In this document: positions 1,236 through 63,818 of the stretch, one piece after another
How the letters are laid out: the number at the start of each line of letters is the position of its first letter
Numbering within the stretch: position 1 is the stretch's first letter
Source of the DNA: Paraburkholderia sp. Tr-20389
Lineage (GTDB): Bacteria; Pseudomonadota; Gammaproteobacteria; Burkholderiales; Burkholderiaceae
Direction: 5' to 3'
Length of the DNA: 64,000 nt
NCBI RefSeq assembly: GCF_017104565.1
Contig: NZ_JAAGPD010000027.1
Coordinates: 1-64,000 of the forward strand
The notes under the pieces: generated by a model
Seen by the model: the letters and a program-made list of their open reading frames with translations, nothing else
The model's database searches: none
What the model was told of the DNA's origin: nothing
Made by a program: the position numbers and the translations under genes

Positions 1236-2450
1236 ATGCCCACACCCGACACCCACCCTGCCGCGTCCGACCGCTCGCTGCGCGGCCTTCTTCTGCTGCT
1301 CGCGACCATCGCAGGCGTGTCCGTCGCGAACATCTACTACAACCAGCCGCTGCTCGACGACTTCCGCCAGTCGTTTCCGCAAAGCGCATCGTGGATCGGC
1401 GTCGTGCCATCGATGACGCAACTCGGCTACGCGGCGGGCATGCTGCTGCTCGCGCCGCTCGGCGACCGCTTCGACCGGCGCACGCTCATCCTGCTGCAGA
1501 TCGCGGGCCTCTGCATCGCCCTGCTGTGCGCCGCCGTCGCGCCAAATCTTTCCGTGCTCGTGATCGCGAGCCTCGCGATCGGCGTGCTCGCGACGATCGC
1601 GCAACAGGCCGTGCCCTTCTCCGCCGAACTCGCGCCGCCGTCGCAACGCGGTCATGCCGTCGGCACCGTGATGAGCGGACTGCTGCTCGGCATCCTGCTC
1701 GCGCGCACGGCGGCCGGCTTCGTCGGTCAGTACCTCGGTTGGCGTGCCGTGTTCGGCGCGTCGATTCTTGCGCTGATCGTGCTGGCCGTCGTCATCCTGT
1801 CGAAGCTGCCGCACAGCAAGCCGACCTCGACGCTCGGCTACGGCAAGCTGATCGGTTCGATGTGGCATCTCGCCGTCGAATTGCGCGGCCTGCGCGAAGC
1901 GTCGCTGACGGGCGCTGCGCTGTTCGCCGCATTCAGCCTGTTCTGGTCGACGCTCGCGCTGCTGCTCGCGGGCGCACCGTTCCACTACGGGCCGCAAGCG
2001 GCGGGACTGTTCGGCATCGTCGGCGCGGGCGGCGCGATGGCGGCGCCCATCGCGGGCAAGTTCGCCGACCGGCGCGGGCCGCGTGCCATCGTGTCGCTGT
2101 CGATCGCACTGGCGGCCATCTCGTTCGTCGTATTCGCGGTATCGGGCACGAGCCTCGTCGGTCTGGTGATCGGTGTGATCGTGCTCGACGTCGGCGTGCA
2201 GGCCGCGCAGATCTCGAACCAGTCGCGCATCTACGCGTTGAAACCGGAAGCGCGCAGCCGCGTGAACACGGTGTTCATGGTCTGCTATTTCATCGGCGGC
2301 GCGGCGGGATCGGCTGTCGGTGCATTCGTGTGGCCGCTGTTCGGTTGGGTCGGTGTGAGCATCGCGGGTCTGGTGTTCACGATGCTCGCCGGCCTCAATC
2401 ATCTGCGCGGACGTCCCGAGCCGCTGAAGGCCTCCGGCGCAGCGGACTGA
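1236..2450 (+). CDS. MFS transporter
   Basis: This is a 404-residue major facilitator protein with about twelve hydrophobic segments. After a short N-terminus comes the phrase NIYYNQPLL in the first helix region, typical of a bacterial MFS drug/metabolite exporter subgroup. GDRFDRR, the loop 2-3 signature, is near residue 80, and a second-half equivalent (GKFADRRGPR) is near 270. It is probably an inner-membrane, proton-coupled exporter of unknown substrate. It converges with the response-regulator pair on its right. The start at 1236 directly precedes the conserved body. Confidence 0.88.
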   Translation: MPTPDTHPAASDRSLRGLLLLLATIAGVSVANIYYNQPLLDDFRQSFPQSASWIGVVPSMTQLGYAAGMLLLAPLGDRFDRRTLILLQIAGLCIALLCAAVAPNLSVLVIASLAIGVLATIAQQAVPFSAELAPPSQRGHAVGTVMSGLLLGILLARTAAGFVGQYLGWRAVFGASILALIVLAVVILSKLPHSKPTSTLGYGKLIGSMWHLAVELRGLREASLTGAALFAAFSLFWSTLALLLAGAPFHYGPQAAGLFGIVGAGGAMAAPIAGKFADRRGPRAIVSLSIALAAISFVVFAVSGTSLVGLVIGVIVLDVGVQAAQISNQSRIYALKPEARSRVNTVFMVCYFIGGAAGSAVGAFVWPLFGWVGVSIAGLVFTMLAGLNHLRGRPEPLKASGAAD

Positions 2451-2488
2451 TTGCCGCCAACGCACGCACGCGAATCATCCGTCCCGGC

Positions 2489-2956
2489 TTATCGTTCGTC
2501 CAGACGCGCCTGCGCATATTCGTGCAGCGCGTCGAGCACCCGGTCGAACTCGAAGGACTTGTCGTAGAAGTGCCGCACGCCGTACTGCTGGCAGCGCTCG
2601 CGATAAGCAGGCAGCGCATGGTTGGTCAGCACGGCGGCGAAGGTCGACTCGATCAGGCCTTCCTTTTGCATATAGGCAAGCACGGGCACGCTCGATCCGC
2701 CCTTCAGCTGCAGATCGACGATCACGGCATCGAACGCTTCACCGTCCAAGAGCGCGATCGCCTCGTCGGCGGACTCGGCCTGCGCGGACACCTGCATCAG
2801 ACCTGACGCGTCGATCGCCTCGACGATGCTGCGCCGGATCAGCGGCGAATCCTCGATCAGCAGCACACGCAGCGGCGCGTGGCCGGGATCGTCGTGTGCG
2901 GTGGCGGAGTCGGGGTTCATCGGTGGCGTTCCATGCGCGGGTCGTCGAACCGTCAT
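2489..2956 (-). CDS. Receiver-only response regulator
   Basis: This 155-residue protein is essentially one CheY-like receiver domain. It has the acidic pocket (LLIEDSPLIR), a phospho-acceptor Asp in VIVDLQLKGG and the conserved Lys in FYDKS, with no output domain. Its ATG overlaps the stop of the upstream LuxR-type regulator as ATGA, which implies translational coupling; an internal Met at 2920 is an alternative start. Being coupled to a DNA-binding regulator near an orphan-looking histidine kinase, it could act as a phosphate sink or adaptor in the same phosphorelay. Confidence 0.85.
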   Translation of the reverse strand: MTVRRPAHGTPPMNPDSATAHDDPGHAPLRVLLIEDSPLIRRSIVEAIDASGLMQVSAQAESADEAIALLDGEAFDAVIVDLQLKGGSSVPVLAYMQKEGLIESTFAAVLTNHALPAYRERCQQYGVRHFYDKSFEFDRVLDALHEYAQARLDER

Positions 2957-3597
2957 TCGATCAAGCCATTCTTGATCGCGTAGTACGTGATGTCCGCATT
3001 GTTCGTCATGTGCATTTTCTCGAGCACGCGCGCGCGGTACGTGCTGACCGTCTTCACCGACAGATGCAGTTCGTCAGCGATGTCGGTCGGAATCTGCCCG
3101 GACGCGAGCTTGCAGAAAATCTGGAATTCGCGCTCCGACAACAGCTCATGCGGATGTGAAGTCGCGGGTCTGTCGAGACTGTTCGCGAGCGTATCGGCGA
3201 CGGCCTCCGACAGATAGCGATGCCCGCGCGCGACCGAGCGGATCGCGCGCACGATCTCGTCGGGCTCGCAATCCTTGTTCAGATAACCGTTCGCGCCCGC
3301 GCGCAGCAGGTTGATCGCGTACTGGCTCTCCGGATAGCCGGAGAGGATCAGCACGTTCTGCTCGGGACGCAGCTGACGGATCACACGCAACGTGTCGATG
3401 CCGTTCTTGTCGGGCATCGCGATATCGAGCAGCACGACGTCGAACGGGTCGCCGTCCTGCTGCTCGCGCACGAGGCGTATCGTCTCGTCGCCCGTTGCCG
3501 CTTCCGCCGCGACGCACATGTCCGGCTCGTCGGCAACGAACTGCCTGAATCCGCCCCGGACGATCGCGTGATCGTCCGCTATCAGCACTCGAATCAT
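2953..3597 (-). CDS. NarL/LuxR-family response regulator
   Basis: This is a 214-residue two-component regulator. An N-terminal receiver has acidic residues D8-D9 and phospho-acceptor D58 in DVVLLDIAMPDKNG. A C-terminal LuxR-type helix-turn-helix begins around residue 148 (LSEREFQIFCKLASG, then KTVSTYRARVLEKM). The start at 3597 gives MIRVLIADDH, the family norm; the upstream in-frame start at 3660 adds unconserved sequence. It is translationally coupled to the following receiver protein. The likely partner is the HisKA_3 kinase at 4982-6472, because NarL-type regulators pair with that kinase class; this pairing is inferred from proximity. Confidence 0.9.
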   Translation of the reverse strand: MIRVLIADDHAIVRGGFRQFVADEPDMCVAAEAATGDETIRLVREQQDGDPFDVVLLDIAMPDKNGIDTLRVIRQLRPEQNVLILSGYPESQYAINLLRAGANGYLNKDCEPDEIVRAIRSVARGHRYLSEAVADTLANSLDRPATSHPHELLSEREFQIFCKLASGQIPTDIADELHLSVKTVSTYRARVLEKMHMTNNADITYYAIKNGLIE

Positions 3598-11173: not shown

Positions 11174-11793
11174 GTTAGCCCACCCGTGCCGGCAATGGCG
11201 CCGCGGCCCCGCTGAAAACCCGTGAACAGGACGGCAGACGCCGTGTCGACGACACGGCATGAAGGGCAAAGCGGGCTGGCATGGCAGTAGAGCGGTAAAC
11301 GACGGTCGAACGGTTGTCGGACGGCAAGGGAGCACCAGGTCAATGGCGCGAATTGATGGCTTTCTTGATGCAGAATGCAACAACAGCGGCCAACGGGCGC
11401 GAATCGCCGCGCCGCCGAGCATTATGCAATATCTGGACAACGCTTCGGCAAGAGAATCGTAACTTTCGTTGCAAGGGAGACGAAAACGCAAAAATAGGCC
11501 GCGAGCGCGGGGCGCTACCGTTATCGCGTGTCGTTTGCTTAGGCTGACTGATTAATGAGCCACCCCGATCGAGCGCGAGTGCTTGCATCGGACGACGCCG
11601 GAGCGACTTCCCGGGCATTAATGAGAAAACAGCCTGAGTCGCAGACAGTTCGACCGACGACGCTGCAATCTCCCTGAAAGCCAGCCGCTGCGCGCCTGCC
11701 GCGCAGGTCGACACCACCTGCGCCCGCCGTTATCGCCACAATTTCAAGACGTGTTGCCAAACCCCGTCCCGCCAGGTTATCGTGTGCGCTGCT
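11174..11793. other. Intergenic region upstream of the thiC riboswitch
   Basis: About 620 bp separate the EamA start from the TPP riboswitch. It must carry the EamA promoter and the thiC promoter. The sequence GATTAATGAG / CATTAATGAG occurs twice (near 11550 and 11617). Short frames here have neither good start context nor recognisable similarity, so I call no gene. Confidence 0.5.
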
Positions 11794-13954
<2,161 letters not shown>

Positions 13955-51620: not shown

Positions 51621-54600
51621 TCAACCCGCGCTGACCCGCTCGCCTGCCACGGTCTCGTCGGACTCGCCCGCGACGCGCGCGAGCACGGGTTCGAGCGCGC
51701 GACCCGTATGGCTCGCAGCGACGCGCACCAGTCCTTCCGGATCCGTCGACGCAACGATCGACCCGCCGCCTACACCGCCCTCCGGCCCGAGATCGATGAT
51801 CCAGTCCGCTTCCGCGATCACGTCGAGGTCGTGTTCGATCACGACGACGCTGTGCCCCGCATTCGCGAGCCGATGGAGCACACGAATCAGCTTCGCGACG
51901 TCGGCCATATGCAGGCCGACGGTCGGTTCGTCGAGTACATACAGCGTGTGCGGCGCCTTCTGACCACGACGCGTGATGTCGTCGCGCACCTTGCTCAGTT
52001 CGGTCACCAGCTTGATGCGCTGCGCCTCGCCGCCCGATAGCGTCGGCGAGGGCTGGCCGAGCGTCAGATAACCGAGGCCCACGTCCTTCATCAGTTGCAA
52101 CGGATGCGCGATATTCGACATCGACGCGAAGAAGTCGACGGCTTCGTCGATTTCCATGGTGAGCACGTCGCCGATGTTCTTGCCGCGCCAGGTCACAGCA
52201 AGCGTTTCCGGATTGAAGCGCTGACCGTGGCAGACATCGCATGGCACCTTCACATCGGGCAGGAAGCTCATGCCGATCGTGCGTACGCCTTGCCCTTCAC
52301 ATGCAGGACAACGCCCGTCGCCCGTGTTGAACGAAAAACGCGATGCGGTGTAGCCGCGCGCACGCGCTTCAAGCGTATCGGCAAAGAGACGTCTGATGGT
52401 GTCCCATACGCCGATATACGTGGCCGGACACGAGCGCGGCGTCTTGCCGATCGGCGTCTGGTCGACCTCGAGCACACGATCGATCGACTCGAAGCCACTG
52501 AGCGATTCGCAGCCTTGCCATGCATGCGCGACGTTCAGCGACGGCCGGGGCGCGCTGCGTGCGAGCACGCTCGAACGGCGATTCGCAGCGGGCGCGGCGT
52601 CCGCTTGCGCGGCCTTGCGCGCACGACGCACAGCAGGCGACGACAACACGGAGCGGCCGACGGCATCCAGCAGATTCGTCATCAGCACGTCGCGCGCGAG
52701 CGTCGATTTGCCGGATCCGCTCACCCCTGTCACGGCGACGAGGCGCCCAAGCGGAATACCGACCGTCACGTCGCGCAGATTGTGCAGCGTCGCACCATGC
52801 ACCGTCAGCCAGTTTTCCGGAACAGCGGGCGCACGTTTCGTCGCAAGAGCAACGGGACGCCGCGCTTGCAACGGATGCAGGATCGGCTTCGCGAGGAATT
52901 GTCCCGTCAGCGAATCGGACTGCGCAGACAGATCGCCGACCCGCCCCTGTGCAACCAGCGTGCCGCCGCGCTTGCCGGCGCCCGGACCGATGTCGATGAT
53001 GTGATCGGCTCGGCGGATCGTATCTTCATCGTGCTCGACGACGACGAGCGTGTTGCCCTTGTCGCCAAGCTTGCGCAGTGCATTCAGAAGAATCTGGTTG
53101 TCGCGCGGATGCAGACCGATGGTCGGCTCGTCGAGCACATAGCAGACGCCCTGCAGATTGCTGCCGAGTTGAGCCGCGAGGCGGATGCGTTGCGCCTCCC
53201 CGCCCGACAGGCTCGGTGCTGCACGGTCGAGGCTCAGATAACCAAGACCGACTTCTTCGAGAAACTGCAAACGGCTGCCGATTTCGCTGATCACGTCGCG
53301 TGCGATCTCCGCATCGCGACCGATGAGTTCGAGCCCGTCGATCCAGCGCCGCGTATCCGACACCGTCCATTGCGCGACGTCGACAATCGAGGTTTCGTCG
53401 AACGTCACGGCGCGCGCGGACGGATTCAGACGCGTGCCGTGGCAATCCGGACACGCCTCCTCGCCGACACCTTCCGGCTCCTGCTCATCCGACGGCAAGG
53501 TCTGCTCGCGGCCGCGATTGTCGTCGACGAGCACGGTGTCGTCATACGCGGCGCGCTGTTCGCACGTCAACGCGAGACCCGTACCGACGCAGGTCGTACA
53601 CCAGCCATGCTTGCTGTTATACGAGAACATGCGCGGGTCGAGTTCCGCGTAGCTGGTGCCGCACACGGGGCAGGCGCGCTTCACCGACAGCACCTTCACT
53701 TCGCCGACATGTGCCGTAGGACCGTTGCGTGTCATCGCGTGTTCGAGGCCGTCGAGCGGCGCGAGCAGATGCATCACGCCCTTGCCTGCTTCGAGGGTTG
53801 CGTCGAGCAGACGGCGCAATTCAGATTCCTTGTCGGCCGACACGACGATGTCTCCGACCGGTAGCTCGATAGTATGTTCGCGGAAGCGATCGAGCTTCGG
53901 CCACGGATCGACGGGTACGAATTCGCCGTCGACGCGCAGATGCGTATTGCCACGCGCCTTCGCCCACTTCGCGAGGTCGGTATAGACACCCTTGCGGTTC
54001 ACGACCAGCGGCGCCAGCAATCCGACGTGCTGGCCTTTGTGGTCGCGCATGAGCTGCGCAAGGATCGACTCGACGCTCTGCGATGTAACGGGCGCACCGT
54101 CATGAACGCAGTGCTGGATGCCGAGTTTCACATAGAGCAGGCGCAGGAAGTGCCACACCTCCGATGTCGTCGCCACCGTACTCTTGCGTCCGCCACGCGA
54201 CAAACGCTGTTCGATCGCGACGGTGGGCGGGATGCCATACACGGCATCGACTTCGGGACGGCCTGCGGGCTGCACGATCGAGCGCGCATAGGCATTGAGC
54301 GACTCGAGATACCGGCGTTGTCCTTCATGGAACAGGATGTCGAACGCGAGCGTCGACTTGCCCGAACCGGATACGCCCGTGATGACGTTGAACTTGCCGT
54401 GCGGAATGTCGACGTCCAGCGCTTTCAGGTTGTGCTCGCGCGCGTTCACGATACGTACGACGTCCTCGCCTTCCACGGCACGCCGTGCGCGTGCAGCGTT
54501 CAGCGCGGTCTGCAGCGGCATGCCATGCGCAGCGGCTTCCGCCTTTTCAGCGGCTTCGGTTGGCTCGATGGCCTGGCCCATCGCGCGGTCGTATTGCACG

Positions 54601-57530
54601 AGCGCTTCGCCTGTGTGCGAACCGGGGCATCGCTTGACGTCTTCCGGCGTACCTGCGCATACCACCAGGCCGCCCGCATCGCCGCCTTCGGGACCGAGAT
54701 CGATCAGCCAGTCAGCCGCGCGGATCACGTCAAGATTGTGCTCGATCACGATCAGTGAATGACCGCCCGCGAGCAGCTTGCCGAAGGCCTGCATCAGCTT
54801 CGCGATATCGTCGAAATGAAGGCCCGTGGTCGGTTCATCGAACATGAACAGACGTGCCGGTGCCTGCCTGGCGCCACCTCGCGCCGTCCGCGCCTGCGCG
54901 GTTTCGGCGAGAAAGCCCGCGAGTTTCAGACGTTGCGCTTCACCGCCCGACAGCGTCGGCACCGGTTGGCCCAGCTTCACGTATTCGAGACCGACATCGA
55001 CGATGGGTTGCAGCACGCGCAGCACTTCACCGTCGCCGGCGAACACGCCGACCGCTTCGTGCACGGTCAGTTCGAGCACGTCTGCGATGCTCAGCACGCG
55101 CTCGCCGCGCTCGATCTTCACTTCGAGCACTTCAGGCCGGTAGCGGCTGCCGTCGCAATCCGGGCAACGCAAATAGACGTCGCTCAGGAACTGCATTTCG
55201 ATATGTTCGAAGCCCGAGCCGCCACATGTCGGGCAGCGGCCGTCGCCCGAGTTGAAGCTGAACACGCCCGCGCCATACCCGCGTTGCAGCGCGAGTGGCG
55301 CCTTCGCGAACAGTTTGCGAATTTCGTCGAACGCGCCGACGTAGCTCGCAGGGTTCGAGCGCGTGGTCTTACCGATGGGGGACTGGTCGACGAAGATAGC
55401 GTCGCTGATCTGCTCGACGCCCGTCAGACTGCGGTGTGCACCCGGCGCTTCCGTCGCCTTGCCGAGTTGGCGCGACAGCGCGGGATACAGCACGTCCTGA
55501 ATCAGGGTCGACTTGCCTGAACCCGACACACCCGTCACGCAGACCAGGCGTTGCAGCGGAATCTCCACCGTCACGTCGCGCAGGTTGTGCTGGCGCGCGC
55601 CTTCGAGCGTGATGCGCGGCGTACCCGCGTCGACGGGCCGGCGCGCCCAGTGCGCCGCGTCGGCGACATGCTTGCGCCCGCCCAGATACTCGCCCGTCAG
55701 CGTACCCGCCGAGCGGATTGCGTCGGGTGTGCCGTCGTAAATGATCGTGCCGCCGCGTTCACCGGGCCCCGGCCCCATGTCGATCAGGCGATCGGCGGCG
55801 AGCATCACGGACGGATCGTGTTCGACGACGACGAGCGTATTGCCCGCGTCGCGCAGACGCTGCATCGCCTCGACGATCCGGTTCAGATCACGCGGATGCA
55901 GACCGATGCTCGGCTCATCGAGCACGAACAGCGTCTTGGTCAGCGACGTGCCAAGCGCCGTCGTCAGGTTGATACGCTGAACCTCGCCACCCGACAGCGT
56001 GCGGCTCTGACGGTCGAGCGTCAGATAACCGAGGCCGACGTCGCACAGATATTTGAGGCGCGTGCGCACTTCGGCGAGCAGCAGTTTCAGCGCGTCGTCG
56101 AGCAGCGCACTGGGCAATACGATCTCGTCGAAGAAGCGCCGGATGCGCTCGATGGGCAGCAGCATCAGGTCGTGCACCGTCAGGCCCGGCAATGCTTCGA
56201 GCTGCGCACGTTTCCAGTCGACCCCGCGCGGCATGAAGCGCTGCGCCGGCTCGAGCACGGCGTCTGCATTCTGTTTCGAACCCAGGCGCCACAGCAGCGA
56301 TTCCGTTTTGAGACGCGCGCCACCGCATGTTTCGCAGGGCGTGTAGCTGCGGTATTTCGACAGCAACACACGGATGTGCATCTTGTACGCCTTCGACTCC
56401 AGATAGCCAAAGAAACGCTTCACGCCGTACCACTGCTTCTGCCACTCACCGTCCCAGTCCGGCGAACCGTTGATGACCCAGTCGCGCTCGTCGTCCGTGA
56501 GTTCTGACCAGCGTGTATCACGGCGGATGTTGGCCTTCGCCGCATAGCGCATCAGGTCGTCCTGACACTCCTTCCATGCAGGCGTTTGCATCGGTTTGAT
56601 CGCGCCGCCGCGGAGCGTCTTGCGCTCATCCGGAATCACGAGCCCCAGATCGACGCCGATCACACGCCCAAAGCCCCGGCACGTGTCACACGCGCCGTAG
56701 GCCGAATTGAACGAGAACAATGCGGGTTGGGGATCGGCATAGCGCAGGTCGCTGTCGGGGTTGTGCAGCCCCGTGGAGAAGCGCCAGATCTGCGGCTCGA
56801 GGTCTTCGCCATCTTGCGCCTGCGACAGCACGTAGACATTGATGCGGCCGCCGCCACGCTTTAGCGACGCCTCGATCGCCTCGACCACTCGCGACTTTTC
56901 GACCTGATGCAGACGAAAGCGGTCGGCGACCACGTCGAGCACCTTGCGCATGCCTGTCGGCGATGCCACTTCGCGTTGCGCCTGGACGCGCGTGTAGCCG
57001 CTCGCGGAGAGCCATTGCTCGACTTCCGCCTCGCTCGTCGTGTCCGGCAGTTCGACCGGAAACGTCAGCACGATGCGCGGGTCGTCGGTGACCGTGCGGG
57101 CGTCCAGTTCCGCGTAGATGGTTTCGGGCGTATCGTGCCGGACAGCCTGCGCGTTCTTGCGATCGAACAGTTCGGCGGCGCGTGCGTAAAGCAACTTCAG
57201 GTGGTCGTTCAGTTCCGTCATCGTGCCGACGGTCGAACGCGAACTGCGCACGGGATTGGTCTGGTCGATGGCAATGGCGGGCGGCACGCCGTCGACGCGG
57301 TCGACCTGCGGCCGGTCCATCCGGTCCAGAAACTGCCGGGCGTACGCGCTGAACGTTTCGACGTAGCGCCGCTGCCCTTCTGCATACAGCGTGTCGAACA
57401 CGAGGCTCGACTTGCCCGAGCCCGACGGGCCTGTCACCACGGTCATTTCGCCCGTGCGAAGGTCGAGGTCGACGTTCTTCAGGTTGTGCTGGCGTGCGCC
57501 ACGAATTCGGATAGTTCCGTTAGATGACAA
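51621..57530 (-). CDS. Double-length UvrA (two fused UvrA modules)
   Basis: This 1,969-residue protein is two complete UvrA proteins in one chain. Four Walker A motifs are seen, GPSGSGKS near 34 and GVSGSGKST near 670, 1050 and 1605. Four ABC signatures (LSGGE) lie near 515, 860, 1440 and 1830. Zinc-finger CxxC pairs are present in both halves. UvrA recognises DNA damage and loads UvrB. From memory, Burkholderia carry such a fused protein besides a normal UvrA. Start chosen at TTG 57530 (LSSNGTIRIRGARQHNLKNV), the family N-terminus; TTG 57635 is an alternative. Confidence 0.9.
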   Translation of the reverse strand: MSSNGTIRIRGARQHNLKNVDLDLRTGEMTVVTGPSGSGKSSLVFDTLYAEGQRRYVETFSAYARQFLDRMDRPQVDRVDGVPPAIAIDQTNPVRSSRSTVGTMTELNDHLKLLYARAAELFDRKNAQAVRHDTPETIYAELDARTVTDDPRIVLTFPVELPDTTSEAEVEQWLSASGYTRVQAQREVASPTGMRKVLDVVADRFRLHQVEKSRVVEAIEASLKRGGGRINVYVLSQAQDGEDLEPQIWRFSTGLHNPDSDLRYADPQPALFSFNSAYGACDTCRGFGRVIGVDLGLVIPDERKTLRGGAIKPMQTPAWKECQDDLMRYAAKANIRRDTRWSELTDDERDWVINGSPDWDGEWQKQWYGVKRFFGYLESKAYKMHIRVLLSKYRSYTPCETCGGARLKTESLLWRLGSKQNADAVLEPAQRFMPRGVDWKRAQLEALPGLTVHDLMLLPIERIRRFFDEIVLPSALLDDALKLLLAEVRTRLKYLCDVGLGYLTLDRQSRTLSGGEVQRINLTTALGTSLTKTLFVLDEPSIGLHPRDLNRIVEAMQRLRDAGNTLVVVEHDPSVMLAADRLIDMGPGPGERGGTIIYDGTPDAIRSAGTLTGEYLGGRKHVADAAHWARRPVDAGTPRITLEGARQHNLRDVTVEIPLQRLVCVTGVSGSGKSTLIQDVLYPALSRQLGKATEAPGAHRSLTGVEQISDAIFVDQSPIGKTTRSNPASYVGAFDEIRKLFAKAPLALQRGYGAGVFSFNSGDGRCPTCGGSGFEHIEMQFLSDVYLRCPDCDGSRYRPEVLEVKIERGERVLSIADVLELTVHEAVGVFAGDGEVLRVLQPIVDVGLEYVKLGQPVPTLSGGEAQRLKLAGFLAETAQARTARGGARQAPARLFMFDEPTTGLHFDDIAKLMQAFGKLLAGGHSLIVIEHNLDVIRAADWLIDLGPEGGDAGGLVVCAGTPEDVKRCPGSHTGEALVQYDRAMGQAIEPTEAAEKAEAAAHGMPLQTALNAARARRAVEGEDVVRIVNAREHNLKALDVDIPHGKFNVITGVSGSGKSTLAFDILFHEGQRRYLESLNAYARSIVQPAGRPEVDAVYGIPPTVAIEQRLSRGGRKSTVATTSEVWHFLRLLYVKLGIQHCVHDGAPVTSQSVESILAQLMRDHKGQHVGLLAPLVVNRKGVYTDLAKWAKARGNTHLRVDGEFVPVDPWPKLDRFREHTIELPVGDIVVSADKESELRRLLDATLEAGKGVMHLLAPLDGLEHAMTRNGPTAHVGEVKVLSVKRACPVCGTSYAELDPRMFSYNSKHGWCTTCVGTGLALTCEQRAAYDDTVLVDDNRGREQTLPSDEQEPEGVGEEACPDCHGTRLNPSARAVTFDETSIVDVAQWTVSDTRRWIDGLELIGRDAEIARDVISEIGSRLQFLEEVGLGYLSLDRAAPSLSGGEAQRIRLAAQLGSNLQGVCYVLDEPTIGLHPRDNQILLNALRKLGDKGNTLVVVEHDEDTIRRADHIIDIGPGAGKRGGTLVAQGRVGDLSAQSDSLTGQFLAKPILHPLQARRPVALATKRAPAVPENWLTVHGATLHNLRDVTVGIPLGRLVAVTGVSGSGKSTLARDVLMTNLLDAVGRSVLSSPAVRRARKAAQADAAPAANRRSSVLARSAPRPSLNVAHAWQGCESLSGFESIDRVLEVDQTPIGKTPRSCPATYIGVWDTIRRLFADTLEARARGYTASRFSFNTGDGRCPACEGQGVRTIGMSFLPDVKVPCDVCHGQRFNPETLAVTWRGKNIGDVLTMEIDEAVDFFASMSNIAHPLQLMKDVGLGYLTLGQPSPTLSGGEAQRIKLVTELSKVRDDITRRGQKAPHTLYVLDEPTVGLHMADVAKLIRVLHRLANAGHSVVVIEHDLDVIAEADWIIDLGPEGGVGGGSIVASTDPEGLVRVAASHTGRALEPVLARVAGESDETVAGERVSAG

Positions 57531-57663
57531 TTTGCCTGTCCGTCTGAATGAGTTGGCCGGGGCATGATGGCGGGCGGAAAGCGGCCATACCTGCCGATGC
57601 GGCGAGGTTCGTGCGGCGCGCGGAGCCTGCTTCAACGAAGGCCGCCACGCCGGGTAGGTGGAT

Positions 57664-58770: not shown

Positions 58771-58815
<45 letters not shown>

Positions 58816-58984: not shown

Positions 58985-60316
58985 ATGCCAACACTAACAG
59001 AGTTGAAAATGAAGGCGCTCCGGGCCGACGACAACGGGAGCACGCTGAGCGATGGCGGAAATCTGTTTGGACGTGTCCGCAGCAAAACTTCAGGCGCGAT
59101 TGCTGTGAGCTTCACGTACCGGTACAAACGCGATGGCAAGTTCCGAGACCTTTCATGCGGCACTTGGCCGAGCAACTCACTTAAGGAGATTCGTCAGCAG
59201 AGAGACGCGGCGCGGGCGCTGCTGGAGCGCAGCATTGATCCGCTGGAGCGCAAACGCGTCGACAAACTCGAGATTCGTGTCGCTGAAACAACACGCCTAG
59301 CGTCGCTTCAAGAGAGACTCGCGCGCCCAACGGTACGAGAACTCTATGGCCGATGGGTCTCGCTTGAGTTGTCGAAGCGCAAGGACGGTGGCAGCGAAAC
59401 CATGCGAGGCTTCGAGAAGGACGTCTTGCCAGCGATTGGCCATATGCATGCAGAAGACGTCGCTCGCTCGCACGTAATGGCGATACTCGACGGCGTGCTC
59501 GCACGCGGTGCGAACCGTCTGGCAAATCGTCTCCTGGGGGAAATGCGCCAGATGTTTGGATTTGCACATGTTCGGGACATCGTGCAAACCGATCCGACCT
59601 TCCGAATCGCGAAGAAAGACGTCGGCGGACGAGACACGGAACGTGACCGCGTGCTGGCCGAAGCGGAAATCCGCACACTGCCAGCGGCGCTCGCTGAATC
59701 GAACCTGCTCAAGTCGACTATACATGCAGTCTGGCTAATGCTCGCAACCGGCGCGCGGGTTGGAGAGGTAACGCTCACGCGACGAGGCGAGGTTGATTTG
59801 GACGCTGGTACATGGACGATCCCCAAGGAGCACGCAAAAAACGGACGTGAGCATGTGATCTACCTATCGGAATTCGCGAAGCGCCATCTTGCCTCGCTGC
59901 TTGAACTGTCTAGCCATAAGGTCTGGGTGATGCCCTCGCGTAAGGAGGAGAGACCAACCTCCGCTAAGGGCATTACCAAGCAGATTGAAGATCGACAGGT
60001 TGCCCACTACAAGCGTGCGGCGCATTCAAAGCGTACTGCCCACGCTCACACGTTGGAGCTTGCAGGCGGCAAATGGACGCCACATGATTTGCGTCGCACG
60101 GCAGGTACGCTAATGGGCGAACTCGGCGTCGATAGCGACGTGATTATCAAGTGTCTTAACCAGACACAAGAACACAAGGTTAAACGGGTCTATCAACGAC
60201 AAATTCGCCTTAACGATCAGATTGAAGCGTGGCGCCTCCTCGGTGAACGCTTAGATTTGCTCACTGACGAACAAAATTTCAACGTCGCAACGATGTCCAG
60301 TTCGCGCGCCGCTTGA
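58985..60316 (+). CDS. Tyrosine recombinase integrase
   Basis: This 443-residue integrase has an N-terminal arm-binding/DUF4102-like domain (about 1-95), a SAM-like core-binding domain and a catalytic domain with Arg in LATGARVGEVTL, Lys near KEHAKNGREH, the HxxR box HDLRR and the nucleophile Tyr in KVKRVYQRQ. It catalyses integration at the adjacent tRNA-Pro site. Its stop codon overlaps the -35 of the following leader promoter. Confidence 0.94.
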   Translation: MPTLTELKMKALRADDNGSTLSDGGNLFGRVRSKTSGAIAVSFTYRYKRDGKFRDLSCGTWPSNSLKEIRQQRDAARALLERSIDPLERKRVDKLEIRVAETTRLASLQERLARPTVRELYGRWVSLELSKRKDGGSETMRGFEKDVLPAIGHMHAEDVARSHVMAILDGVLARGANRLANRLLGEMRQMFGFAHVRDIVQTDPTFRIAKKDVGGRDTERDRVLAEAEIRTLPAALAESNLLKSTIHAVWLMLATGARVGEVTLTRRGEVDLDAGTWTIPKEHAKNGREHVIYLSEFAKRHLASLLELSSHKVWVMPSRKEERPTSAKGITKQIEDRQVAHYKRAAHSKRTAHAHTLELAGGKWTPHDLRRTAGTLMGELGVDSDVIIKCLNQTQEHKVKRVYQRQIRLNDQIEAWRLLGERLDLLTDEQNFNVATMSSSRAA

Positions 60317-60342
60317 CAAGTGGTAAACCCGCGCCTTATTCT
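60313..60342 (+). promoter_or_regulatory. Strong promoter overlapping the integrase stop
   Basis: TTGACA (60313-60318) contains the integrase TGA stop; after 18 bp comes TATTCT (60337-60342). Transcription would begin about 60349, exactly at the first hairpin of the leader RNA. Confidence 0.72.
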
Positions 60343-60348
60343 GTGATC

Positions 60349-60426
60349 GTCACTGAAACAGCAGTGACCAGGTTTGGCGACCTGGATAACCTATGGCGGA
60401 CAACCGCCTTCCGGCGGTATTTTTTC
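60349..60426 (+). ncRNA. P4 CI-like immunity RNA candidate
   Basis: Three consecutive hairpins are seen: GTCACTG/CAGTGAC (60349-60368), CCAGG-TTTGGCGA-CCTGG (60368-60385) and ACCGCC-TTCC-GGCGGT (60403-60418) followed by ATTTTTTC, an intrinsic terminator. The result would be an RNA of about 78 nt. In satellite phage P4 the CI RNA arises from the same position and controls early termination of the replication operon. The identity is inferred from layout and complementarity, not from sequence identity to P4. Confidence 0.7.
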
Positions 60427-60587
60427 GTCCGCACGCCTGCGCACGTCCCTTCAATGGGCGGGCCCTGGCGGGGAGACTTTCGAGTCTGCCGGTTTCCATA
60501 GGTGCCGGTTCGCCAACCCTGCCATGTGCCCGCTCACCCCGTTTGGCGACGGGAAGCGAGCCCCAACATACCTACGGAGCCCGCATC
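60427..60587 (+). promoter_or_regulatory. Structured leader with CI-complementary site
   Basis: TCGCCAACCCTG (60510-60521) is complementary to CAGGTTTGGCGA (60369-60380) of the candidate RNA at 11 of 12 positions. A further hairpin at 60538-60553 (CCCGT-TTGGCG-ACGGG) repeats the TTGGCG loop. In P4, such CI-complementary sites in the leader mediate premature termination. The leader ends at the ribosome-binding site of the first small gene. Confidence 0.65.
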
Positions 60588-60761
60588 ATGCAGTCACAAG
60601 TCTTTCACTCCGGGCATCAAGCCCAGCCTTCCGAGATAATACGCGCCGCCCTCCGAGACGCAGCGATCGCACCGACCATCTACGACGCGTTAGATGTCAC
60701 GGGTGATGCGCTCCGACGAGTGTTGGAGCTTGTCTCGGAGGGCGGACATGTCAAAGCTTAG
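60588..60761 (+). CDS. Small element protein, 57 residues
   Basis: This 57-residue protein starts MQSQVFHSGHQAQPSEIIRA and ends in a helix ALRRVLELVSEGGHVKA. ACGGAG lies before the ATG. It is the first gene of the P4-like operon, and its stop overlaps the next gene by 14 bp, which suggests coupling. No family is recognised with confidence; small P4-group genes in this position vary widely. Confidence 0.68.
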   Translation: MQSQVFHSGHQAQPSEIIRAALRDAAIAPTIYDALDVTGDALRRVLELVSEGGHVKA

Positions 60762-61429: not shown

Positions 61430-61735
61430 ATGACCGAGGAGCAGCGAACCGTGAGCCTAGCAAACGCATACCCATTTGATCATCCTGCCACCCGCACAAA
61501 GCCGACGCCCACGCATTCCGCCTCGTTGGCTGCCTTCAACTCGAATAGGGAGCGCGCGATTCGGCTTCCCGAAGTAAAGCGAATCACTGGCTTAGGTACG
61601 ACGACGATCTATGAACTCATGGGTCAAGGCAAGTTTCCGAAGAATTTCTCGACAAGCGCGAAGGCAAAGGCGTGGCTTGAGTCCGAGGTCCAGGACTGGT
61701 TGTCTAGGCGGGCCGCAACGCGGAACGCCGCATAA
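61430..61735 (+). CDS. AlpA-like regulator (copy 1)
   Basis: This 101-residue protein contains an AlpA/excisionase-type winged helix at about 35-95: RLPEVKRITGLGTTTIYELM, then GKFPKNF and AWLESEVQDWLSRRAA. AlpA proteins bind DNA and regulate prophage integrase or excision. A poorly conserved 35-residue N-terminus precedes the domain. It is the first gene after the attenuator-like hairpin. Confidence 0.88.
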   Translation: MTEEQRTVSLANAYPFDHPATRTKPTPTHSASLAAFNSNRERAIRLPEVKRITGLGTTTIYELMGQGKFPKNFSTSAKAKAWLESEVQDWLSRRAATRNAA

Positions 61736-61849: not shown

Positions 61850-62803
61850 GTGATCGTCGCCCCGGACTTTGTCGACCATTGGAAGACCCGCACGCTGGTC
61901 GGCCTCCTCGGCGACGACGAGGTAGCACCGGTCTATGTCATACGGCTCTGGGCGCACTGCCAGCAGCGACGGACATCCGTGTTCGAGTCGCTACCGACGC
62001 CAGCACTCCGAGCCATATGCCGTTTCCCGGGCAATGCCGAGTCATTCGAGTCCGCCATGGTCGAAAGCGGGTTTATTTCGCGAGATGGTCAATCCATTCG
62101 AGTGAATGGATGGGATGAGTACAACGCCGCGCTCATCGCAAACTGGTCGAACGGCCAGAAAGGCGGTCGACCGCGCAAATGCGGGCATCAAAGTACCCAG
62201 ACCGAACCCGAAACAAACCCAAAAGAAACCCTTGGGTTTCCTGAGCAGAACCCAACGGAAACCCAAGGGGTAACCCACGACGAACCGATAAGAGAAGATA
62301 AGAGTAGAGAAGACAAGATAGGACCACAACAAACTTATGTCGAGTTGGCACTCGACGACGCTTCGCTGGGCGAGAATCGCAATGGTGAGCAAGGCGTGCA
62401 GCAACCGCCTGCCGAAAAGCCGAAGCGGACCCGCAAGGCTACGACGTCAATCGAAGACGTAGAGGCGGTGTTCGACTACTGGAAGGCGAAGCGCGAACAT
62501 CCACGCGCCAAGCTCGATGCGAAACGTGAGAAGAACATCCGCGCACGCCTCGCTGACGGCTACATGGTCGCCGAACTGTGCCAAGCAGTTGACGGCATCG
62601 CGAAATCGGCGTTCCACATGGGCGAAAACGACCAGCAAACGGTCTACGACGACGTCGAACTGATCTGCCGCAACGCAGGGAACGTCGACAAGTTCATCCG
62701 GCTTGCTGACGCCCCGTCGCCGTCATCGCTGTCGAAGGCTGGCGCGAAGACCGCCGCAGCGGCACAACGCTGGCTCGCACGACAAGTAAGCGGCAATGGT
62801 TAA
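61850..62803 (+). CDS. Phage replication-initiation-like protein
   Basis: This 317-residue protein has an N-terminal winged-helix-like domain (APDFVDHWKTRTLVGLLGDD, then VNGWDEYNAALIANWSN), a low-complexity linker ending REDKSREDKIG, and a C-terminal helical domain (VFDYWKAKREHPRAKLDAKR) like those of phage replisome organisers (DnaT/O-like). GTG 61850 follows GGAGG. It should load host helicase at the element origin; the linker-coding DNA itself looks like an origin. Confidence 0.78.
   Translation: MIVAPDFVDHWKTRTLVGLLGDDEVAPVYVIRLWAHCQQRRTSVFESLPTPALRAICRFPGNAESFESAMVESGFISRDGQSIRVNGWDEYNAALIANWSNGQKGGRPRKCGHQSTQTEPETNPKETLGFPEQNPTETQGVTHDEPIREDKSREDKIGPQQTYVELALDDASLGENRNGEQGVQQPPAEKPKRTRKATTSIEDVEAVFDYWKAKREHPRAKLDAKREKNIRARLADGYMVAELCQAVDGIAKSAFHMGENDQQTVYDDVELICRNAGNVDKFIRLADAPSPSSLSKAGAKTAAAAQRWLARQVSGNG
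62210..62330 (+). other. Candidate replication origin within the rep gene
   Basis: In the linker-coding stretch AACCC-type repeats cluster: GAAACCC at 62225, an exact 11-bp inverted pair CTTGGGTTTCC (62231-62241) and GGAAACCCAAG (62257-62267), and more AACCC at 62249 and 62272. A purine-rich, AT-richer tract (62285-62325) follows. Lambda-type origins have the same order: iterons then an A-rich unwinding tract inside gene O. Inferred from pattern only. Confidence 0.5.
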
Positions 62804-63620: not shown

Positions 63621-63818
63621 ATGTCTCAAAGGATCATTCGCTGCCCGGACGTTTGCGGTCGCATCGGAGTTAGCAGGAGCAGCCTCTACCGGCTCGTCGC
63701 TGTGGGAGAGTTCCCGCAGCCCGTCAAGCTGTCGACTCAAGGCCGCGCGGTAGGTTGGCTTGCAACGGACGTCGACCGGTATATCGAAGCGCGTGCGGCA
63801 ACTCGCCCAGTCGCATAG
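63621..63818 (+). CDS. AlpA-like regulator (copy 2)
   Basis: This 65-residue AlpA family protein is a bare winged helix: MSQRIIRCPDVCGRIGVSRS, SLYRLVAVGEFPQPVKL and GWLATDVDRYIEARAA. It is shorter and more canonical than copy 1. GGAG precedes ATG 63621, just after a hairpin with a T tract. It may start the next operon of the element to the right of the window. Confidence 0.9.
   Translation: MSQRIIRCPDVCGRIGVSRSSLYRLVAVGEFPQPVKLSTQGRAVGWLATDVDRYIEARAATRPVA

Follow-up and report, generated by a model that had tools for sequence, protein, structure and literature searches.

A C4-type antisense RNA module behind the integrase gene of an integrated element in Paraburkholderia sp. Tr-20389

Results

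Identification of a C4 RNA and its leader

RNA family models, folding and comparison across related loci were employed on a 64,000-nucleotide (nt) stretch of DNA from Paraburkholderia sp. Tr-20389 (contig NZ_JAAGPD010000027.1, positions 1 to 64,000; hereafter the window), which very probably carries a C4-type switch for antisense RNA immunity, belonging to an integrated mobile element of 19 kb. The region in question lies directly behind the integrase gene at the left end of the element (Table 1). The Rfam model of the C4 antisense RNA (RF01695) matched there at full length (1-87) with 71.9 bits against a cut-off of 45 (E 8.7e-14), the curated cut-offs being used to judge all Rfam matches. The fold of the matching segment had a z-score of -3.7 and its stems covary, with two-sided changes that keep the pair at 11 of the 22 consensus pairs in 28 sequences. 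Upstream of it, the isrK model (RF01394) matched 60349-60424 with 50.1 bits at a cut-off of 50 (E 1.7e-9). The c4-a1b1 model (RF03163), described by Rfam as the C4 antisense RNA targets a1 and b1, scored 45.0 bits on 60336-60388, which is below its cut-off of 46.7 (P4 itself scores 44.1).

A preliminary description of the window had proposed a P4-like RNA immunity module here, made up of a promoter whose -35 element contains the integrase stop, a 78-nt RNA with three hairpins and an intrinsic terminator, and complementarity of the second hairpin to a segment further downstream. These elements were all recovered. The TTGACA at 60313-60318 holds the stop codon TGA (60314-60316) with which the integrase open reading frame (ORF) ends at 60316, and 60349-60424 folds into three hairpins, the last being the terminator, at -28.1 kcal/mol (z -3.2), a value matched by none of 200 shuffles; 60349-60437 reached -36.2 kcal/mol (z -4.3). 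The segments CAGGTTTGGCGA and TCGCCAACCCTG pair at 11 of 12 positions and the pairing extends to 17 nt at 82% (60369-60385 with 60505-60521). A covariance search of the leader, suggested at the time as a check, gave the isrK score above, compared with 60.8 bits in P4. The kind of system was also named correctly, as the CI region of P4 scores 74.9 bits with the C4 model. The roles were swapped, however: the 78-nt RNA, then taken for the analogue of CI, is the target leader (seqA in P4, a1/b1 in P1), and the antisense RNA is the segment 60450-60541. The recurrence of TTGGCG at 60543 is now read as target a2. Not described at the time were the C4 RNA, the 8-nt pairing of 60389-60396 with 60496-60503 and the target over the Shine-Dalgarno sequence at 60569-60579.

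C4 carries two specificity segments, which can pair with four targets, two in the leader and two downstream, labelled a and b following P1 naming. The second downstream target, b2, adjoins the first gene such that the Shine-Dalgarno GGAG falls within b2 and is followed by the ATG at 60588. The outer helix of the terminator was seen to share one base with target b1, and pairing of C4 with b1 might influence the terminator through this base.

Table 1. Features of the module and its element, and of related C4 clusters in Ralstonia.
Feature	Position	Strand	Evidence or remark
Left attachment repeat, 3' part of tRNA-Pro	58771..58815	.	exact 45-bp repeat
Tyrosine integrase of the element	58985..60316	+	PF00589 Phage_integrase 9.9e-16; phrog_1 2e-41
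Promoter-like TTGACA-18-TATTCT	60313..60342	+	10/12 consensus matches
Leader RNA, isrK / c4-a1b1 type, P4 seqA equivalent	60349..60424	+	RF01394; two hairpins and intrinsic terminator
Target a1, TTGGCGA, leader hairpin 2	60374..60380	+	pairs with C4 60510-60516
Target b1, ACCTATGG	60389..60396	+	8/8 complementary to C4 hairpin loop 60496-60503
Terminator hairpin 60403-60418 and T-run, inside outer 6-bp helix (60396-60401 with 60427-60432)	60396..60432	+	
C4 antisense RNA, equivalent of P1 C4 and P4 CI RNA	60450..60541	+	RF01695
C4 specificity segment b', loop of middle hairpin	60493..60504	+	67 versions in 89 loci
C4 specificity segment a'	60509..60518	+	27 versions in 89 loci
Target a2, TTGGCGA	60543..60549	+	pairs with C4 60510-60516
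Target b2, TACCTACGGAG	60569..60579	+	pairs with C4 hairpin loop, score 19, one mismatch; overlaps Shine-Dalgarno GGAG 60576-60579
First controlled ORF (putative), 57 aa	60588..60761	+	recurrent small protein family without a name
Second ORF, 98 aa	60748..61044	+	overlaps 57-aa ORF by 14 nt
AlpA-type regulator / excisionase	61430..61735	+	PF05930 8.4e-15
Replication initiation (O-like) protein	61850..62803	+	phrog_16167 2e-22
Second AlpA-type regulator	63621..63818	+	PF05930 2.8e-12
Second copy of the 45-bp repeat, exact	contig C21:77898-77942, beyond the window		within tRNA-Pro gene (ggg, L008:2899-2975)
Ralstonia C4 cluster	L160:8064-8991	-	one complete module, then two C4s 39 nt apart
Ralstonia C4 cluster	L162:8623-9563	+	as above
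Ralstonia C4 cluster	L164:7987-8923	+	as above

Coordinated change of C4 and its targets

The pairings were evaluated across 89 loci with 83 distinct C4 sequences, three loci being taken from the source genome and one each from 86 others among the best matches listed. One locus (L043) with less than 180 nt of upstream sequence was left out of motif counts (n = 88) and was kept with its short stretch in the pairing scores. With one representative per version of the hairpin loop (n = 67) and relatedness of the loci uncorrected, C4 paired better with its own targets than with permuted ones at each site, the mean scores being 19.9 versus 12.9 at b1 (z 23), 17.5 versus 13.2 at a1 (z 16), 21.8 versus 12.7 at b2 (z 26) and 17.0 versus 11.9 at a2 (z 18). 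In none of 10,000 permutations was the own mean reached at any of the four sites, and reversed hairpin loops, used as a control, scored 14.5 upstream and 14.0 downstream. The C4 hairpin loop and its targets change together across the 89 loci.

Motif counts were in line with this layout. Of the 88 loci, 85 have a Shine-Dalgarno core at the position of b2, where base shuffles predict 16.1. Five consecutive T precede C4 in 61 loci (2.0 expected), and the stretch equivalent to the promoter contains a -10-like hexamer (5/6) in 40 (8.4 expected). All three C4 copies found in the source genome have an isrK match just upstream, two of which fall below the cut-off. Within the window, the promoter and the terminator occur at chance level, with one of each in 1.4 kb where 0.6 and 1.3 are expected. 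It is the Rfam scores and the coordinated change of loop and targets that go beyond chance, not the promoter or terminator.

Proposed mechanism

The C4 RNA of P1 and the CI RNA of P4 are cut from the leader transcript, pair with segments up- and downstream, block translation of the first gene and lead to early termination of transcription. RNase P is the processing enzyme of C4 in P1. The anatomy of the window locus agrees with each of these steps. What the sequence data show are the C4 and isrK families, the four pairings and their joint change between loci, the overlap of b2 with the Shine-Dalgarno sequence and the ends of the element. By analogy, we infer a corresponding course of expression, processing, translation block, early termination and immunity for the window locus. 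Transcription would start at about 60349, beside the integrase gene, and many transcripts would stop at the isrK terminator (60403-60424). Read-through RNA would be cut to yield C4 (60450-60541), which would pair through its two specificity segments with a1 and b1 in the leader and with a2 and b2 downstream. As the b2 duplex would cover the Shine-Dalgarno sequence of the 57-amino-acid (57-aa) ORF, translation of this ORF would be blocked, and transcription would end early, following the pattern of P1 and P4. This would keep off the 57-aa and 98-aa ORFs and possibly also AlpA (61430) and the O-like replication protein (61850) behind them, and the resident C4 would silence any newly arriving element that shares its specificity.

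The putatively controlled genes

The start of the 57-aa ORF at 60588 was our choice, made from the Shine-Dalgarno sequence and the family alignment in a frame that is open from an ATG at 60393; likewise, an ATG was chosen for the 98-aa ORF in a frame open from 60694. The 57-aa ORF of the window had 0 matches in Pfam, PHROG and NCBIfam, and a search of its family against NCBIfam returned a single one of 26 members at an uninformative E of 0.074. The 98-aa ORF matched no family in Pfam or PHROG. By a simple motif count the 57-aa family stands at the C4-controlled Shine-Dalgarno sequence in about 30 of the 89 loci. The window member found 17 of the other 88 by tblastn, and 26 members were aligned (alignment A1). 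Mean pN (nonsynonymous difference) was 0.32 and mean pS (synonymous difference) 0.59 over 325 pairs, pN being the lower in 324, and the 57-aa ORF is probably translated since the family members change mostly at silent sites. Among ten larger first ORFs of relatives, one carried Bro-N (L019), one KilA-N (L025) and one DUF1484, and seven carried none. No tblastn match to the 98-aa ORF, the O-like replication protein or a 181-aa ORF was obtained in the 88 other loci, of which only 0.5-3 kb downstream was covered.

Relation to P1, P4, Gifsy-1 and Burkholderia cenocepacia

P1 scored 68.8 bits with the C4 model, 51.0 with c4-a1b1 and 35.1, below the cut-off, with isrK. The C4 fold is common to P1 and the window locus, and a1, b1, C4, a2, b2 and icd are annotated in P1 in the same order as found here. 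The last three start 4, 33 and 51 nt after C4, compared with 2, 28 and 47 nt after the C4 match for their counterparts in the window; furthermore, b2 lies just before the first small gene and the second ORF overlaps the first in both. The two differ in their first genes, which are icd and ant in P1 and the 57-aa and 98-aa ORFs in the window, and in that the window element is integrated and small and has a leader that is the better isrK match (50.1 versus 35.1 bits).

The CI region of P4, which scores 44.1 bits with c4-a1b1 in addition to the C4 and isrK scores given above, likewise consists of a C4 family match and an isrK-type leader, and a matching b2 was seen by eye over the AGGAGG before an ATG. 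The layout of CI RNA immunity with seqA and seqC, a P4-type trait, was found at the window locus by Rfam scores and pairings. As a difference from P4, a Pfam scan of a subset of 20 ORFs of the window element found neither an alpha-type primase/helicase nor capsid-hijacking genes nor any further hallmark domain of P4. Membership in the P4 satellite family is unsupported on this account (0 of 20).

The isrK-orf45/STnc1160 region of Gifsy-1 was recognised by Rfam as an isrK leader followed by a C4 RNA (L101:14132-14317, minus strand), with 79.3 bits for isrK, 69.0 for C4 and 48.1 for c4-a1b1. The C4 match is located between isrK and anrP, where the Gifsy-1 paper (PMC4825925) places orf45/STnc1160. 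A difference from the window locus is that anrP, an antirepressor-like gene, is the gene under control. For the second segment the authors use the terms ORF and CI-like RNA; they name the SeqA RNA of P4 as a structural homolog of IsrK and suggest a CI-like role for STnc1160. The phrase "C4 RNA" does not occur in their main text (PMC4825925). They also report compensating pairs, G28/C162 and G31/C159, which raised translation of anrP when broken and lowered it again when restored (PMC4825925). If the first base of the isrK match is counted as nt 1, a numbering under which 8 of 8 checked published bases carry the right letter, one side of these pairs lies in a1 (nt 26-32) and the other within the C4 match (nt 103-186). 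The pairing of a1 with C4 thus has support from the bench in the relative Gifsy-1.

The same isrK-C4 tandem has been described in Burkholderia itself. On island BcenGI9 of Burkholderia cenocepacia J2315, adjacent isrK ncS23 (81 nt) and C4 ncS24 (90 nt) in one transcriptional unit were reported in 2015, found from differential RNA sequencing (dRNA-seq) start sites together with Rfam and with lengths inferred by the authors (PMC4603805), which shows transcription of a relative.

The element and its gene content

Exact 45-bp repeats (58771-58815 and C21:77898-77942) set the ends of the element about 19.2 kb apart, and the integrase frame is open over 443 aa. Pfam domains in 20 chosen ORFs of the element comprised the integrase, two AlpA, two DUF2280, a resolvase and a Toll/interleukin-1 receptor (TIR) protein of CAP12/Pycsar type, whereas no capsid, portal, large terminase or P4 alpha-type domain was found in these 20. 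PHROGs, run on 10 of them, gave the O-like replication protein. The element is called a small integrative element or a decayed prophage, membership in the P4 satellite family not being supported. The TIR protein lies outside the window (L008:1937-2782, minus strand; C21 at about 76936-77781; PADLOC PDC-S35 9.3e-75, Pfam 1.6e-38) and was the sole PADLOC match among 10 cargo ORFs. Standing beside the right attachment site, it is likely to be defence cargo of the element.

Elsewhere in the window, an ordinary thiamine pyrophosphate (TPP) riboswitch was observed at 11789-11916 (RF00059, 60.4 bits), and a 2004-aa ORF at 51621-57635 (minus strand) resembles a doubled UvrA excinuclease subunit as judged by eye from its translation.

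Distribution of C4

The survey for C4 was positive in 190 of 398 genomes sampled from the bacterial family of the source (16 of 25 genera) and in 30 of 200 genomes sampled across the phylum (22 of 110 genera); all 14 control genomes were negative. Since no more than 10 or 20 candidates were scored per genome, depending on the survey, the copy numbers are minimum values. In a distant DNA search of phage records with 60300-60760, the sole match was a C4-like stretch of 83 bp, present in 23 Pseudomonas phage records. Earlier mentions include isrK in B. pseudomallei (PMC3521395), both isrK and C4 in two of the three B. thailandensis strains (PMC7242668), C4 on Mycetohabitans chromids (PMC12696581) and a range for C4 given as "Proteobacteria, phages" (PMC2864571). 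A review enters IsrK and c4 separately and has c4 act around the ribosome binding site and underlie P1/P7 heteroimmunity (PMC12197685).

The preliminary description had spoken of a possibly divergent version of the P4 system in a new host group. Neither wording was supported, as the C4 score is like those of P1 and P4 and C4 is widespread in the family. In fact, neither the system nor the host group is new, because isrK and C4 are in print for Burkholderia and C4 for Proteobacteria and phages, and the locus is a fresh, clear example of a P1/P4-type switch.

Several C4 modules in one genome

The source genome holds three C4 modules with three different segment pairs. In a cross-pairing table, each C4 scored 2 to 9 points higher with the upstream targets and a2 of its own module than with the corresponding sites of the other two. 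For b2, the own site was likewise the best for the first and second C4 but not for the third, whose match is located downstream of the tested stretch. In a first set of loci, none of 128 same-genome pairs shared a hairpin loop, compared with 51 of 3788 pairs between genomes. Adding four C4s known only from clusters gave 1 in 150 (a cluster C4 and L116 of genome G067, with differing a segments) and none that shared both segments, and three further genomes, among them one with 20 listed C4s, gave 0 of 241 comparable pairs. All comparable same-genome pairs taken together (391, being the 150 plus 190, 45 and 6 from the three further genomes for loci with an extracted loop) include one that shares the hairpin loop and none that shares both segments. 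In the analysis of the further genomes, 5 of 39 loci yielded no loop, and the extraction at L221 looks wrong.

The number of shared loops expected by chance is itself small. Over all 147 loci, 0 were seen where 1.14 were expected (P 0.31, not significant), and outside Ralstonia 0 of 27 pairs shared a loop with 0.23 expected (P 0.79). Within Ralstonia, 0 of 101 pairs shared a loop where 4.0 were expected (P 0.013), and upon addition of the four cluster C4s one hairpin loop was shared versus 5.0 expected (P 0.02) and no segment pair versus 3.6 expected (P 0.02). The P values for Ralstonia span 0.007 to 0.03 depending on the set, and since several sets were tried they are to be read as uncorrected. 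Draft assemblies may in addition collapse identical copies and thereby hide pairs with the same loop. Avoidance of shared specificity within a genome is suggestive only, because the chance baseline is low.

Genome G527 (L189-L208) carries 20 or more C4 modules, no two of them with the same hairpin loop; most are accompanied by matching targets, L200 being an exception with none. Several of its contigs break off a few hundred bases or less from a C4, which suggests repeated flanks. In the 20-copy genome, own pairings exceeded permuted ones at all four sites (0 of 10,000 permutations at each), and the own target was best or tied for 9 (b1), 16 (a1), 16 (b2) and 12 (a2) of the 20.

Clusters of C4 were found at three Ralstonia loci (Table 1). 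The extra C4s of these clusters lack a good Shine-Dalgarno target, their best downstream hairpin-loop match being 13 to 18 as opposed to 25 to 26 for the complete modules, and upstream matches of 17-18 are kept by the first extra C4 of L160 and an a2 match by the last C4 of L162. For each of the four extra C4s of L160 and L164, targets that match its segment pair occur in a different Ralstonia genome (L023, L064 or L160; the a1 site of L064 is ambiguous), and the extra C4s of L162 are each one base off such a target-matched pair. Such clusters are rare, occurring in 2 of 24 named loci found with a Ralstonia 120-aa protein. Other arrangements were also observed: three complete modules about 2 kb apart (L163:6408-10857, plus strand), three about 0.7 kb apart with matching targets in another family of the phylum (L209, oriented 1772-3286), and two C4s without a good downstream hairpin-loop target (L161:8173-8529, plus strand).

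One could read the specificity segments as a fast-evolving incompatibility key by which cohabiting elements must differ, and the extra C4s that match the switches of rivals as a small RNA-guided exclusion array. We consider this idea unlikely. In its favour are the single shared loop and the lack of any shared segment pair among the 391 same-genome pairs, the deficit of shared segment pairs in Ralstonia and the targets elsewhere that match the four extra C4s of L160 and L164. The exception in G067, the P of 0.31 over pooled genera and the partial targets kept by some extra C4s all weigh against it, and the extra C4s may simply be left over from old modules.

Discussion

The complementarity between leader and downstream segment would hold whichever of the two regulates, and in Gifsy-1 the short IsrK acts in trans on the downstream transcript (PMC4825925). 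The assignment with the 78-nt leader RNA as the CI-like antisense regulator, acting on a target 130 bp downstream, is nevertheless improbable, as the downstream segment is the C4 RNA itself (71.9 bits), the annotation of P1 makes C4 the antisense RNA and the upstream segments its targets, and the target at the Shine-Dalgarno sequence matches the C4 hairpin loop. The Rfam C4 match downstream and the P1 annotation led us to reject this assignment. Chance complementarity in GC-rich DNA beside an integrase gene, with which the promoter and terminator counts that do not exceed shuffles would be compatible, is of negligible probability given the E-values of C4 and isrK and a loop-target match that was reached in 0 of 10,000 permutations, and was rejected on these grounds. 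Somewhat more weight, though still well short of even, is given to a decayed remnant, in which the RNA module is recognisable and the element inactive, leaving the switch without effect. The missing capsid, portal and large terminase domains among the 20 scanned ORFs and the mismatch in b2 speak for such a remnant; the promoter, the terminator and all four targets are nevertheless recognisable, the integrase frame is open, the attachment repeats are exact, and C4 could still silence incoming elements of the same type.

Several observations weigh against the reading of the locus as a C4-type immunity switch. The isrK score is marginal and that of c4-a1b1 lies just under its cut-off, and b2 of the window has a single mismatch and, at 19, stays under the mean score of 21.8. 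Discrimination between loops and targets is imperfect and weakest for b1, the own target ranking first or joint first among the 67 in only 41 (b1), 55 (a1), 51 (b2) and 52 (a2) representatives, and the permutations ignore kinship of the loci. In contrast to P1, Pfam and PHROG returned no antirepressor domain in the 57-aa and 98-aa ORFs. In Gifsy-1, IsrK in trans activates downstream translation, and co-expression of STnc1160 made the growth arrest by IsrK stronger and not weaker (PMC4825925). Finally, the element may be decayed and the switch out of use.

A C4-type antisense RNA immunity switch remains the favoured reading of the locus. It joins CI/seqA of P4, C4/a1b1 of P1 and IsrK/STnc1160 of Salmonella under one set of RNA models, with the P1 leader below the isrK cut-off, and the link across these naming traditions is partly in print already in the homology of SeqA and IsrK (PMC4825925). 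The module is very common in the family and most variable at its specificity bases, and thereby offers natural pairs of matched and mismatched RNAs for tests of antisense immunity and of coexistence.

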